Below the pieces are notes generated by a model. That model did no database searches. It worked only from the letters and a program-made list of their open reading frames with translations, and had not been told where the DNA came from. From Hymenobacter yonginensis (GTDB lineage Bacteria > Bacteroidota > Bacteroidia > Cytophagales > Hymenobacteraceae): a stretch of DNA of 64,000 nucleotides. This document shows, in pieces, positions 11,291 through 55,792 of the stretch. Position 1 is the first letter of the stretch. Every line of letters starts with the position of its first letter. The position numbers and the translations under genes were made by a program. The DNA is taken from assembly GCF_027625995.1 (NCBI RefSeq), contig NZ_CP115396.1:1736001-1800000 (forward strand), in the 5' to 3' direction.

Positions 11291-12874
11291 ATGTCTGCTC
11301 CCTTCCGTGAGATTGAAGTGCTGCTGCCGCCGGCCGTAGCCTACGACGAGTTTGCCCGCTACGAGGCCCTGCTGCACGCCGCCGGCCTGCAGCCCGGCCA
11401 GGCCGATTTCGTGCATTTGCGCAAGCGCTCCATTGATGCGCGCGGCCGCAGCCCCCAGGTGCGCCTGCGCGCCGATATCTACCAGACGCCGCCGCCCACC
11501 AGCCTGTTCGGGCCCTGGTTTCAGTATCCCGATGTCAGCCAGGCCCGGCGCACGGTGTTGATTGTGGGCGCGGGTCCGGCCGGCTTGTTTGCGGCGCTGC
11601 GCTGCATTGAGCTGGGGCTGAAGCCGATTGTGCTGGAGCGCGGCAAAGACGTGCGCACCCGCCGCCGCGACCTGGCCGCCCTCAACAAGGAGCACGTCGT
11701 CAACCCCGATTCCAACTACTGCTTCGGGGAAGGCGGCGCCGGCACCTACTCCGACGGCAAGCTCTACACCCGCGCCACCAAGCGCGGCGACGTGGGCCGG
11801 ATTCTGCGCTGCTTGGTGCAGCACGGCGCCACCCCCGACATTCTGGTCGACGCCCACCCCCACATCGGCACCAACAAGCTGCCCTCAGTGGTGGCCGCCC
11901 TGCGCGACAGTGTGCTGGCCGCCGGCGGCGAAGTGCGCTTCGATACGCGGGTAGACGACCTAGTGCTGGACAACCACCGCCTGCGCGGCGTGGTGACGGC
12001 CACCGGCGAAGCCCTGGAAGCTGACGCCGTGATTCTGGCCACCGGCCACTCCGCCCGCGACATCTACGAGCTGCTGCACCGCCGCGGCGTGCTCATCGAG
12101 GCCAAGCCTTTTGCCTTGGGCGTGCGCGTGGAGCACCAGCAGGAGCTGATTGACCGGGCCCAGTACCGCCTCAACGACCGGGGCGAGCTGCCGGCGGCCT
12201 CGTATTCGCTGGTGCACCAGACACAGTGGCAGGGCCGGCAGCGGGGCGTGTTTTCGTTCTGCATGTGCCCGGGCGGCTTTATTGTGCCGGCGGCTACCGC
12301 CCCCGGCGAGGTGGTGGTGAACGGCATGAGCCCCAGCCGCCGCGACTCGCGCTTCGCCAACTCCGGCATTGTGGCGGCCGTGGAGCTGGAAGACATGGAC
12401 GTGCGCCAGTACGGCGCCCTGGCCGGCCTGCGCCTGCAGCAGCAGATTGAGCAGCGCGCCTGCCAGGTGGCCGGCAACACCCAGCGCGCCCCCGCCCAGC
12501 GCCTCGGCGACTTCCTGAAAGGCAAGCTGTCGGCGGAGCTGCTCGAAACCAGCTACCAGCCCGGCCTGGTGCCCGTAGCTATGGACGACGTACTGGGCGC
12601 GGGCCTAGCGGAGCGGCTGCGGCAGGGCTTCCAGGATTTCGGGCGCAAGATTCCAGGCTACGCCACCAACGCCGCCCAGATTGTGGGCGTGGAAAGCCGC
12701 ACCTCCTCGCCCGTCCGCATCCCCCGCGACCGGGACACGCTGGAACACCCCGAGGTGCGCGGCCTGTTTCCGTGCGGCGAAGGCGCGGGCTACGCCGGCG
12801 GTATCGTGTCGGCAGCCATGGACGGTGAGCGGTGCGCCGAGGCGGCGCTGGCCTCGTTATCCGTCGGTGTTTAG
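11291..12874 (+). CDS. NAD(P)/FAD-dependent oxidoreductase (COG2509-like)
   Basis: A 527-residue flavoprotein. After an N-terminal extension of about 90 residues comes the FAD Rossmann motif VLIVGAGPAGLFAALRCIEL, then the family signature NYCFGEGGAGTYSDGKLYTR and the second nucleotide region ADAVILATGHSARDIYELL. The C-terminus has EVRGLFPCGEGAGYAGGIVS, the terminal FAD-binding motif of this group. Members of COG2509 are predicted dehydrogenases with unproven substrates. It is monocistronic; a repeat begins directly at its stop codon. Confidence 0.87.
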   Translation: MSAPFREIEVLLPPAVAYDEFARYEALLHAAGLQPGQADFVHLRKRSIDARGRSPQVRLRADIYQTPPPTSLFGPWFQYPDVSQARRTVLIVGAGPAGLFAALRCIELGLKPIVLERGKDVRTRRRDLAALNKEHVVNPDSNYCFGEGGAGTYSDGKLYTRATKRGDVGRILRCLVQHGATPDILVDAHPHIGTNKLPSVVAALRDSVLAAGGEVRFDTRVDDLVLDNHRLRGVVTATGEALEADAVILATGHSARDIYELLHRRGVLIEAKPFALGVRVEHQQELIDRAQYRLNDRGELPAASYSLVHQTQWQGRQRGVFSFCMCPGGFIVPAATAPGEVVVNGMSPSRRDSRFANSGIVAAVELEDMDVRQYGALAGLRLQQQIEQRACQVAGNTQRAPAQRLGDFLKGKLSAELLETSYQPGLVPVAMDDVLGAGLAERLRQGFQDFGRKIPGYATNAAQIVGVESRTSSPVRIPRDRDTLEHPEVRGLFPCGEGAGYAGGIVSAAMDGERCAEAALASLSVGV

Positions 12875-12986
12875 TTGTTGGTTGTCAGTTATCAGTTCCC
12901 TTGCGACCTTTTTCCGTAAATACCCGTTGTCAGGTGCTTAGTGACAACTACCAACTGACAACCGACAACTAACAATTGACAACTAG
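12875..12986. repeat. CAACTGAC phrase element with inverted arms, copy 1
   Basis: The left arm (12875-12897, TTGTTGGTTGTCAGTTATCA...) and the right arm (12942-12986, several tandem forms of CCAACTGACAACCGACAACT) are imperfect inverted copies around a core of about 45 bases. The element starts at the stop codon of the oxidoreductase and ends four bases before the ATG of the CoA-binding protein. Copy 2 is at 31196-31291. Confidence 0.75.
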
Positions 12987-18932: not shown

Positions 18933-19123
18933 GAACGTCATGCAGAGCGTAGCCGGAGGCGGCGCGAAGCATCTCGCCAGCGTGGTAACATCAAACCTAT
19001 TGCACGATTGGGTCACCGTTACACGCGAGTTACTTCGCGCCGCCTCCGGCTGCACTTTGCATGACAGGTAGTTTGGCAACGTCAGCACGCCAGATGCTTC
19101 GGCAAGCTCAGCATGACGTTCTT
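18933..19123. repeat. GTCATGC-AGC phrase element, three related units, copy 1
   Basis: Two arms of 33 bases at 18937-18969 and 19033-19065 are inverted copies with about three mismatches (both contain CCGGAGGCGGCGCGAAG or its complement). A third unit, 19079-19123, reads on the minus strand AAGAACGTCATGCTGAGCTT... and shares most positions with the arm at 55641-55685. The element fills the gap between the Gfo/Idh/MocA stop and the convergent methyltransferase stop and could also act as a terminator. Confidence 0.75.
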
Positions 19124-26064: not shown

Positions 26065-28275
26065 CTAGTACCCCAGCAGCTCGGCCAGGGCGGCGGCTAC
26101 CTTATCGGGGTTGGGCAGCATCTGGCGTTCCAGCTCCACGTTGAGGGCAATGGCAGGCAGATTGGCGGCGCCGAGCGTGAACACGGGCGCGTCGAGCTGG
26201 CGGAAGCAGGTACGCTGGATGCGCCCGGCCAGACTTTCGGCGAAGGAATTCATAAGCGGCTCCTCGGTCAGCACCAGGGCCTTACCGTGGCGACGCACGG
26301 CGGCTTCCACGGCTTCGTAGTCGAGAGGGTTGAGGGTGCGCAGATCCAGGATTTCCACCTGGCCGGCAAACTGGCGGCTGGCGGTTTTGGCCCAGTGCAC
26401 GCCCATGCCGTAGGTAATCACTACGCAGGTTTCGCCGTTTTGCAGCTTCGTGGCGTCGGCCTGCTGGGACACGGCGGCTTTGCCGAGCGGCACCACGTAG
26501 CCAGTGGCGGGCTCCACGGTTTTGGCGTCTTCGGTGCCGGGCACTTTGCTCCAGTAGAGGCCTTTGTGCTCCAGCATCACCACGGGGTTGGGGTCGAGGT
26601 AGGCGGCGCGCATCAGGCCCTTCATGTCGGCGGCGTTGCTGGGGTACACCACCTTGATGCCGCGGATGGTGAGCAGCGTGCTTTCGATGGAGCCTGAGTG
26701 GTAGGGCCCGCCCCCGCCGTAGGCCCCGATGGGCACCCGGATGAGGCTCTGCACCGGAAACTGGCCGTTGGAGAGGTAGCAGCTCTTGCTGAGCTCCTCC
26801 ACCAGCTGGTTCAGGGCCGGCCAGATGTAATCGGCGAACTGCACTTCCACGATGGCCTTGGCGCCCACGGCGCTCATGCCGGCCGTGCTGCCCACGATGT
26901 AGGCCTCCTGAATAGGCGTGTTAAACACGCGGGCGTCGCCGTACTTTTTGGCCAGCAGGGCGGCCTCGCGGAACACGCCGCCCAACTCACCACCCACGTC
27001 CTGACCGTAAAACAGGGCCTCCGGAAACTCGCGCAGAATATCATCCACGGCGTGCAGGGCGGCGTCCACCATCAGGGCCTTGTCGGCTCCGGCGGGGGTC
27101 CGCTCGCCGGCTTCCTCGGTCACGGCCGGCGGGGCAAACTCGTGGTCGGCGAAGGTGGCGGGGTCGGGGTTGGGGGCGGCCAGGGCGCGCTGGTAGTCGG
27201 CCTCCACAGTGGCGCGGGCCTCAGCGGCCAGCTGCTGCAGCTCGTCTTCGGCGAAGCCCAGCTCCAATAGCTGCTGGTGGAAGCGCGGCAGCGGGTCCTG
27301 CAGGGAGTGTTGGGCGAGGTTGTCGCCGCGGTACCACTCGCGGCGCACGCCGCTGGTGTGGTGGCCCAGCAGCGGGCAGCGGGCGTGCACCAGCACCGGG
27401 CCGCGCCGCTCGCGCACGTAATCGGCGGCCTGCTGCATGCCCGCGTAGCTGGCCAGGAAATCGGCCCCGTCGAACTGCAGGCGGTGCAGCCCTTTAAAGC
27501 CGGCCGCAAACTCGTAGGCATCCATGGCCCGCATCTCGCGGCCCGTGGCCGAAATGCCCCATTCGTTGTCCTGCACCAGGTAAATAATGGGCAACTGGTG
27601 CAGCACGGCCATCTGCAGCGCCTCGCTCACCTCTCCCTCGGTCATGGCACCGTCGCCGATGGAACACAACACGAGCGGCTTCTTTTCTGAATTAGTAATT
27701 AGTAATGAAGAATTAAGAATTGGCTGTTCATCATCGCCTGAACCTGCATCCGCTGGCAAATCCGTGGATGAATCACTAATTGCTAATTGCTCATTACTAC
27801 TTGTCGCCAGCCCCTGGCTTTCCAGATACTTGATGCCGTGGGCGACGCCGGTGGCCGGAATGGCCTGCATACCGGTGGCCGAGCTTTGGTGCGGAATGGT
27901 AGGGAAGCCGGCGCGCCGCAGCGAGGGGTGGCTGTAGTAAGTGCGGCCGCCCGAAAATGGGTCGTCGCGCTTGGCCATGAGCTGCAGCATCAGCTCGTAA
28001 GGCTGCAGGCCGATGCCCAACAGCATGGCGTCGTCGCGGTAGTAGGGCGCCACGTAGTCCTGGGGGCCGAGCTGGCTGGCGGCGGCCAGCTGAATGGCCT
28101 CGTGGCCGCGGGCGGTGGCGTGCACGTACTTGGCCGTCACGGCCTTGTTTTCTTCGTAGAGGCGGGCCAGCTCGTCGGCGGTCCGCATCAGGCGGTACAC
28201 CCGGCGCAGCGTTTCGGGCGCGGGCGGGGCGGCAGTGAAGTCAGCTTCCAGAGTGGGGGCAGCGTGCAGGGACAT
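26065..28275 (-). CDS. Fused alpha/beta 2-oxoacid dehydrogenase E1 (thiamine diphosphate) with a translated repeat insert
   Basis: A 736-residue single-chain E1 that decarboxylates a 2-oxoacid and passes the acyl group to an E2 lipoyl domain. The alpha half (1-380) has YYRDDAMLLGIGLQPYEL and the thiamine diphosphate motif beginning SIGDGAMTEGEVSEALQMAV and ending QDN. The beta half (400-736) has the family strands GQDVGGELGGVFREAA, FNTPIQEAYIVGSTAGMSAV and EVQFADYIWPALNQLVEELS. The fused form is common in Bacteroidota. Between the helix ending at residue 156 (YLESQG) and strand KKPLVLCSIGDG (198 onward) are about 41 extra residues encoded by an AT-rich inverted repeat. The reading frame is intact. 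Branched-chain oxoacid is a likely substrate class but not proven; no E2 gene is nearby. Confidence 0.92.
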   Translation of the reverse strand: MSLHAAPTLEADFTAAPPAPETLRRVYRLMRTADELARLYEENKAVTAKYVHATARGHEAIQLAAASQLGPQDYVAPYYRDDAMLLGIGLQPYELMLQLMAKRDDPFSGGRTYYSHPSLRRAGFPTIPHQSSATGMQAIPATGVAHGIKYLESQGLATSSNEQLAISDSSTDLPADAGSGDDEQPILNSSLLITNSEKKPLVLCSIGDGAMTEGEVSEALQMAVLHQLPIIYLVQDNEWGISATGREMRAMDAYEFAAGFKGLHRLQFDGADFLASYAGMQQAADYVRERRGPVLVHARCPLLGHHTSGVRREWYRGDNLAQHSLQDPLPRFHQQLLELGFAEDELQQLAAEARATVEADYQRALAAPNPDPATFADHEFAPPAVTEEAGERTPAGADKALMVDAALHAVDDILREFPEALFYGQDVGGELGGVFREAALLAKKYGDARVFNTPIQEAYIVGSTAGMSAVGAKAIVEVQFADYIWPALNQLVEELSKSCYLSNGQFPVQSLIRVPIGAYGGGGPYHSGSIESTLLTIRGIKVVYPSNAADMKGLMRAAYLDPNPVVMLEHKGLYWSKVPGTEDAKTVEPATGYVVPLGKAAVSQQADATKLQNGETCVVITYGMGVHWAKTASRQFAGQVEILDLRTLNPLDYEAVEAAVRRHGKALVLTEEPLMNSFAESLAGRIQRTCFRQLDAPVFTLGAANLPAIALNVELERQMLPNPDKVAAALAELLGY
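27684..27807. repeat. AATTAGTA phrase element inserted in frame in the E1 gene
   Basis: The left arm (27689-27724) begins GAATTAGTAATTAGTAATGA and the right arm (27771-27800) is CTAATTGCTAATTGCTCATT-like. They are imperfect inverted copies around a core of about 46 bases with ordinary GC. In the first 33 bases of the left arm only six are G or C, against very GC-rich flanks. The 124-base segment contributes about 41 codons without frameshift or stop. Confidence 0.82.
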
Positions 28276-31191: not shown

Positions 31192-31195
31192 CTGG

Positions 31196-31291
31196 TTGTC
31201 AATTGTTGATTGTCAGTTGTCAGTCGACAAATGAGAGAATGAGACTATCCGCCAGCAACTGACAACGAGCAACTGACAACCGAGAACTGAC
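31196..31291. repeat. CAACTGAC phrase element with inverted arms, copy 2
   Basis: The left arm (about 31196-31231, GGTTGTCAATTGTTGATTGT...) and the right arm (about 31255-31291, CAACTGACAACGAGCAACTG...) are imperfect inverted arrays of the same phrase as at 12875-12986, around a core of about 23 bases. It runs from the hemF stop to within two bases of the PAP2 start codon. Confidence 0.75.
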
Positions 31292-41477: not shown

Positions 41478-45998
<4,521 letters not shown>

Positions 45999-46004
45999 AC
46001 AATG

Positions 46005-46203
46005 TAGAGACGCATACTTGCGTCTCGTCGTCCGCGCCGCCAGAACGAGGTAGAGACGCGACACTTCGCGTCTCGTCGTTGAACGACCGGAACCGCGCAT
46101 AACCGCACAGCAATAACAACATCAGCAACGGCGAGACGCAACATATTGCGTCTCTACATCGCCCAACTATCAGCAACGATTGAGACGCAAATATGCGTCT
46201 CTA
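46005..46203. repeat. GAGACGC hairpin element between gltB and gltD
   Basis: Four short palindromes: 46005-46026 (TAGAGACGCATACTTGCGTC...), 46051-46074, 46133-46156 and 46182-46203. Each pairs GAGACGC with GCGTCTC. Units 3 and 4 are inverted relative to units 1 and 2, shown by the TA flank and by shared neighbours (CAGCAACG beside units 3 and 4; CGTCGTTG beside unit 2). The whole set again forms arms around a core. It lies in the presumed gltB-gltD mRNA. Confidence 0.82.
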
Positions 46204-46217
46204 CACAGTTCTAGAAC

Positions 46218-55557: not shown

Positions 55558-55565
55558 TTTTGTTT

Positions 55566-55792
55566 GTGATGAGGTGATGAGGTGATGAGGTGATGAGGTG
55601 ATGAGGTGACAGGTGACAGGTGACAGGTGACAGGTAAAGAAAGAACGTCATTCCGAGCGGAGCGAGGAATCTCGCGTGCTGACGTTGCAATGCTTTTCAT
55701 ACGTCAGCACGCGAGATTCCTCGCTCCGCTCGGAATGACGGCCTGACGTTTCACCTCATCACCCCATCCCCTCTTCACCCCATCACCCCAAC
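55566..55792. repeat. Nested repeat element between response regulator and kinase
   Basis: The outer left arm is five tandem GTGATGAG units (55566-55605) followed by four GTGACAG units (55606-55633). The outer right arm (about 55750-55792) is a degenerate inverted form (CACCTCATCACCCC...). Inside lies a perfect 40-base inverted repeat, 55646-55685 and 55701-55740, with a 15-base loop, beginning CGTCATTCCGAGCGGAGCGA. This inner unit belongs to the same family as 19079-19123. The element fills the whole spacer between the two genes. Confidence 0.85.

Follow-up and report, generated by a model that had tools for sequence, protein, structure and literature searches.

How does a short inverted repeat come to be translated within a conserved enzyme, and what keeps it there? 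The question is raised by a stretch of 64,000 nucleotides from Hymenobacter yonginensis (contig NZ_CP115396.1, positions 1,736,001 to 1,800,000; hereafter the window), in which the gene for an E1 component of a 2-oxo acid dehydrogenase is interrupted in sequence, though not in frame, by an AT-rich palindrome. The explanation that we consider highly probable is that palindromic repeats resident in Hymenobacter genomes recurrently enter permissive surface loops of proteins, and that the versions that are in frame and free of stop codons survive. A preliminary description of the locus was concerned with this single insert; beyond it, many repeat types are found at the same site in E1, and a second enzyme, IspG (GcpE), is likewise affected.

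The E1 gene occupies positions 26065 to 28275 of the reverse strand as an uninterrupted reading frame of 736 codons. Its product is a fused alpha-beta E1 protein that scored above the cut-offs of PF00676, PF02779 and PF02780 in a profile search, none of the NCBIfam models reaching its cut-off. The closest solved chains by sequence are beta subunits of 2-oxoisovalerate dehydrogenase, and an AlphaFold model (mean pLDDT 85.9, pTM 0.89) resembled PDB structures of E1 and of related thiamine-diphosphate enzymes. The palindrome lies within a hypervariable loop of 52 amino acids (residues 151-202; 27670 to 27825, this and the following features being on the reverse strand), delimited by comparison of orthologues and by the predicted structure. 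The loop follows a helix ending in YLESQG, is bounded by the anchor residues Y150 and L203, and stands directly upstream of the GDG (G207-D208-G209; 27649 to 27657) of what we take to be the thiamine-diphosphate cofactor strand. In coding orientation a first arm of heptamers (27771 to 27802), reading about SSNEQLAIS, is separated by a core (27722 to 27770), which in alignment is diverged among close relatives, from a second arm of heptamers (27690 to 27721), preceded by the motif CAGCC and reading about ILNSSLLITN. On the plus strand the arm at 27690-27721 consists of AATTAGT twice, AATGAAG, AATTAAG and a partial AATT, and that at about 27771-27802 is its degenerate complement, composed of AATCACT, AATTGCT twice, CATTACT and ACTT.

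An inverted-repeat search paired arms of 36 nucleotides (27697-27732 with 27767-27802) at 75% complementarity, with a z of 6.7 against dinucleotide shuffles of the same sequence, none of 300 of which equalled it. The in-frame, AT-rich inverted repeat that the preliminary description had placed at 27684-27807 is thus real, with its coordinates and frame correct, although the repeat unit, given there as a phrase of eight letters, is a heptamer (AATTAGT and variants), and the stated gain of about 41 residues is reduced to a net excess of about 36-38 (52 residues versus 14-16 in short orthologues). The suggestion that the insert is tolerated as a loop agrees with the model, in which residues 163-195, between helix 138-153 and strand 202-207, have pLDDT values below 50, a helix at 159-168 also being assigned with low confidence. 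The loop is predicted to be disordered, would be exposed at the protein surface and, as implied by the open frame, is presumably translated. At up to three mismatches, the 32-nucleotide arm has no second copy within the window.

Is such a loop a general property of E1 enzymes? Orthologous loci came from three sources: an initial search of 39 relatives, which gave 30 loci, a search of 120 Hymenobacter genomes, and the 80 top-ranking named contigs. The loop was sought in 220 loci and the window (GDG anchor in 217, both anchors in 199, no anchor in L030, L089, L095 and L236, the last a neighbouring stretch), some genes occurring in more than one locus. By a hand tally these cover 117 of the 120 genus genomes (all except G006, G012 and G112), the loop being measured in 114. 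In G006 the E1 gene (G006:C1:1515361-1517234) is in several pieces with a TAG, reflecting either a pseudogene or a poor assembly. The best named matches to E1 are from Hymenobacter. Outside that genus, 45 of the 48 named loci with both anchors have loops of 13-20 residues, the exceptions being L070 (28), L087 (33) and L096 (53), and 13 more named loci that lack the left anchor fall outside the 48; a conserved long loop in distant genera, named earlier as an outcome that would refute insertion, is therefore not what most orthologues show. The measured Hymenobacter loops range from 14 to 55 residues.

The loop DNAs comprise 166 unique sequences, of which the 80 with a length of 75 nucleotides or more were each compared with 300 dinucleotide shuffles; 22 of the 80 contained a significant inverted repeat (p <0.01; z 4.5-18.7), 21 of them from Hymenobacter and one (L070) from a metagenome-assembled genome labelled Ferruginibacter. 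In Hymenobacter, 20 of the 114 genomes with a measured loop are carriers, in addition to the window, and the arms fall, by eye, into about 12 types, including AATTAGT, AATTAAA, AATTCAG, GTTAAGA, GAGTTTT, GGATGAA, GTTTCTC and AATGAAG. Arrays of period seven are restricted to the loop: across 187 distinct E1 genes all 39 such arrays, in 23 genes, lie within it and none elsewhere. Two loci from outside Hymenobacter, L019 and L087, have arrays of this period in the loop without a significant palindrome. Inverted repeats scoring at least 13 are less confined, with 19 in the loop and 28 not restricted to it, the latter being GC-rich coding stretches, one of which (L013) extends into the loop.

The history of the loop was followed on a tree of 130 E1 proteins from which the loop had been removed, built by a quick method with support from the Shimodaira-Hasegawa-like approximate likelihood-ratio test (SH-aLRT) only. 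The 21 carriers among the 130 rows require presence to have changed 17 times and type 19 times, under a scoring in which gains are not separable from losses and marginal loops (L230, L141, L006) count as absent. In four cases a palindromic loop stands next to a sister with a shorter loop (L142/L035, support 98; L009/L021, 98; L176/L218, 99; L003/L190, 85) between flanks that are 86-93% identical, the outcome that an alignment with close relatives, proposed earlier as a check on insertion, should give. Sister loci may also differ in type, as do L147 (GGATGAA) and L004 (AATTAAA), with support of 91 and flanks 88-89% identical. Palindromes have therefore been repeatedly gained, lost or replaced in the E1 loop, and this presence and absence, together with the turnover of type, points to movement of the repeats.

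If the repeats do move, related copies should be found elsewhere in the genomes that carry them, and in close relatives of the window genome this is the case, so that the other refuting outcome named earlier, arms that occur nowhere else, did not arise in the genomes searched. The AATTAGT type, counted as a 25-mer with at most two mismatches in 20 genomes, had 20 matches (at 16 places) in G001, 14 in G107, 10 in G079, 19 in G004, 16 in G062 and 4 in G008, all of which have this type in E1; of the remaining 14 genomes, six had 26, 7, 3, 1, 1 and 1 matches and eight had none (Mann-Whitney p 0.0016, after subtraction of one E1 match each for G001, G107 and G079). Five further E1 types were counted (GTTAAGA, GGATGAA, GTTTCTC, AATTCAG and AATTAAA). 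GTTAAGA had 91 matches in G102, 97 in G115 and 10 in G085, and none in 19 of 22 genomes; GGATGAA had 40 in G071 and at most two in each of the other 21; GTTTCTC had 30 in G118 and none in the other 21, its second carrier (G117) being outside that set. For each of these three distinctive types, dispersed copies are most numerous in those searched genomes that also carry the type in E1. The AATTAAA pattern proved of little use as a genome test because its reversed control matches too.

The dispersed copies differ from the E1 inserts in how they relate to reading frames. A 400 kb sample of G001 contains four AATTAGT palindromes in addition to the E1 copy, and none of the 15 other G001 places of this type lies within a spanning open reading frame (ORF). 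The frame is open in only one of these 15 (this place, like two others, was recovered as one 25-base arm) versus 22 of 22 palindromic E1 loops that are stop-free in frame, as one would expect if, as first proposed, the frame is preserved. Among 128 inverted repeats scoring at least 15 in the window and the G001 sample, a set that excludes the window E1 palindrome (score 13.5), four are placed within coding-like ORFs; just one of these four, the E1 copy of G001, has arms with a period of seven. At three loci (L271, L278, L280) the end of a coding-like ORF coincides with the border of an AATTAGT element, and the stop codon of the ORF may come from the element.

Taken together, the insert in the window is most probably a coding copy of a dispersed inverted-heptamer family of this Hymenobacter lineage, whose other members in the nearest genome are intergenic. 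The loop before GDG would be exposed and tolerant, such that copies arriving in frame and without stop codons could survive, and many such events would have occurred across the genus, several of them involving a repeat type of which the genome concerned has many copies. Arrival may have been by copying from other genomic copies, and resident elements may later have been replaced, possibly via repair of breaks at hairpins.

An alternative scenario, which we regard as unlikely, dispenses with a mobile copy and has heptamer slippage and hairpin-templated inversion build the palindrome in place. The period-7 structure itself is in keeping with such a local origin, as are the unrelated cores of the AATTAGT palindromes at L243 and L259, two intergenic elements at the same place in two species in which the arms are kept. 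The inner CAGCC motif is likewise not general: although present in three of the first four copies, and so considered as a mark of the whole family, it is shared by only three of the 15 other G001 places. In L013 the loop opens, just before the heptamers, with 22 bases that repeat the coding sequence immediately upstream perfectly in inverted form; the feature as a whole runs from 26 bases before the loop to 28 bases inside it and may record a templated inversion. The scarcity of CAGCC and the inverted copy of L013 slightly weaken the proposal that resident repeats enter the loop and raise the standing of a local origin. What a local origin does not readily accommodate is that each of the three distinctive E1 types has dispersed copies in its own genome and few or none in the other genomes searched, that the short sister loops of L035, L021 and L218 have no period-7 array, and that the IspG gene of G001 (L300) contains a palindrome, not built of heptamers, that is also dispersed in the sample of that genome. 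Moreover, arms pair no better within than between species, and there is no sign of arm-to-arm correction.

Several other observations count against the entry of resident repeats. About four-fifths of the Hymenobacter genomes have no significant palindrome in the E1 loop by the hand tally; possession of a type does not predict the insert, since G017 has 26 AATTAGT matches and none in E1; the counts of AATTCAG and AATTAAA do not single out the genomes that carry these types in E1; and the assignment of types by eye is a weakness. Nor was a mobiliser found for the repeats among Y1-type transposases, an absence that also favours a local origin. Of 41 listed Y1 transposase matches, 30 were examined with about 1.5 kb on each side, and a period-7 array was found near a match at one of the 30 loci, versus about three expected from the density in G001. 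This lone array, at the edge of L321 (G017), belongs to the AGCTGTT type, abundant in G017 with 106 matches; one such array is no more than chance would produce, and a Y1 enzyme gains no support. G107, G079 and G062 have no Y1 match yet contain 14, 10 and 16 AATTAGT matches. The earlier claim that the repeats are mobile is supported through presence, absence and turnover of type; no mobilising enzyme came to light.

The second enzyme came to light because the AATTAGT copies of G079 and G004 were found in frame in IspG, where the same process has probably acted on the loop between domains. Matches to IspG came from 119 genomes, and in the 30 best loci this inter-domain loop contains inverted repeats (p <=0.01) in 20; the IspG query itself carries an element, which biases this fraction, so that it is no genus-wide rate. 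The types are AATTAGT, GTTGTCA, AGCTGTT and a GC-rich non-heptamer, and all 26 period-7 arrays, in 17 genes, are located in the inter-domain loop. AGCTGTT is dispersed in G017, G103 and G126, the IspG carriers of this type being outside that genome set. In L300, the G001 IspG gene, a GC-rich palindrome of the CTCACCCCCTAGCCCCCTCTCC type is read in frame and has four look-alikes in the 400 kb of G001.

One might instead suppose that the palindrome is retained for a role at the DNA or mRNA level, such as hairpin pausing or message stability. This too we consider improbable, but the arms are unusually conserved as DNA. Among five sequences (window, G107, G079, G001 and G008) the synonymous third-position difference is 0.042 in the arms (19 columns) versus 0.243 in the rest of the gene, a value as low as that of the arms being found in none of 620 equal-sized windows, and only 1-3 of 20 arm codons end in G or C, versus 80-89% elsewhere. 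Low divergence of the arms may be due to a function, to their having been copied from repeats elsewhere, or to exchange across species. A retained role sits poorly with sister species in which the palindrome is missing or swapped for an unrelated loop. The right arm alone is unexceptional (13 of 628 windows are as low), the hairpin is only modestly stable as RNA (z -2.1, with 7 of 200 shuffles equally stable), and no known RNA element in Rfam matched window positions 27400-28100 at E values up to 1. Across four sets, arms paired with the arm of their own species no better than with that of another, and hence there is no support for correction through a hairpin. Apparent inversions of the core between the arms (L245 versus L248; L242 versus the G001 copy at 177001) proved by eye to be loci written out on opposite strands, and an inversion was rejected.

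Least probable of all, to the point that we give it very little credence, is an ordinary disordered loop that drifts and spreads via recombination between E1 alleles. Long non-palindromic loops (of the DPRDFYESGQ and LQEALRPLLG types) do exist, and the former is patchy on the tree. A GC-rich non-palindromic loop of the DPRDFYESGQPVPGLY type is found in L002, L007, L010, L049, L148, L153, L175 and others, and its patchy spread over distant branches of the genus suggests allele exchange. Drift may hold for such loops; it does not yield 22 significant palindromes, several with genome-matched heptamers, and is contradicted for the palindromic ones.

The entry of resident repeats can also be taken a step further, in a tentative form that we think rather doubtful: the E1 and IspG loops could be exchange sites at which, after a first palindrome has arrived, hairpin breakage and repair (for example by SbcCD-type nucleases) would swap it for other resident palindromes, so that the loop would track the currently active repeat type, with arms kept at the DNA level and the core free. 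Were this true, repeat DNA would repeatedly supply new peptide to conserved enzymes.

With regard to known systems, in-frame palindromic repeats in conserved genes are best known from Rickettsia, going by the part of a review available to us (PMC10969869). The Rickettsia palindromic elements are described there, and for one case in part of a further paper (PMC5656822), as dispersed palindromic repeats that lie in frame in genes and add peptide. The Hymenobacter repeats share with them the combination of dispersed palindromes and in-frame copies in protein-coding genes. They differ in having arms made of heptamer arrays, in a host that is a member of the Bacteroidota, and in cores and peptides that vary between carriers, rather than a homologous full-length unit with a conserved peptide. 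The likeness drawn in the preliminary description thus applies to the effect and not to the organisation of the sequence: the Hymenobacter repeats work like Rickettsia palindromic elements and are not members of that family, because neither the core nor the peptide is conserved. In Hymenobacter, moreover, one site is shared by many repeat types that are unrelated to each other. The same portion of the review names other intragenic miniature inverted-repeat transposable elements; of the features of that class (terminal inverted repeats, target-site duplications and a parental transposon), inverted arms are seen in Hymenobacter.

TAACTGA heptamers have been reported from Beggiatoaceae, cyanobacteria and Bacteroidetes as dispersed, mostly intergenic repeats, some of which are read as LSVISYQ; apart from a single inverted case they are described as direct repeats, and those within ORFs are mostly in protein ends or hypothetical proteins (PMC4679880, as far as its accessible part goes). 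That part mentions neither Hymenobacter nor recurrent palindromes in internal loops of conserved enzymes. The Hymenobacter repeats are comparable in being tandem seven-base units mainly between genes (none of the 15 G001 places in a spanning ORF), and some GTTGTCA-type IspG inserts read VVSYQLSV, which may be compared with LSVISYQ. In mitochondria of Nematomorpha, long inverted repeats occur in translated genes and, according to the portion of the report seen, their arms encode conserved protein regions (PMC6649704), whereas the Hymenobacter arms encode an extra loop that is predicted to be disordered. REPINs and their RAYT enzymes, covered in part by PMC3116915, represent small dispersed palindromic DNA of a kind also seen in Hymenobacter, where the association with a Y1 transposase of the RAYT type was not found among the loci examined. 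No report of coding repeats of this sort in Hymenobacter was found in the open literature searched.

What distinguishes the present case is that many repeat types occupy one loop in each of two conserved enzymes, in a genus that is free-living and in which sister species without the repeats exist. This makes the entry of repeats into genes, the chance rate of the right frame and the neutrality of the added peptide open to testing, and more than 100 sequenced Hymenobacter species can be used as replicates.

The window contains further repeats away from E1. Inverted repeats of the GTTGTCA heptamer type lie at 12871-12972 and 31194-31281, the second of which has a counterpart with diverged arms at the corresponding position in G001. 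At 55560-55740 a direct array of GGTGACA heptamers adjoins a palindrome with perfect arms of 40 bases (CGTCATTCCGAGCGG...), and G001 carries this array in a different copy number. Palindromes at 18937-19065 and 45997-46211, of the GTCATGCAGAGCG and GAGACGC types, have look-alikes in the G001 sample.
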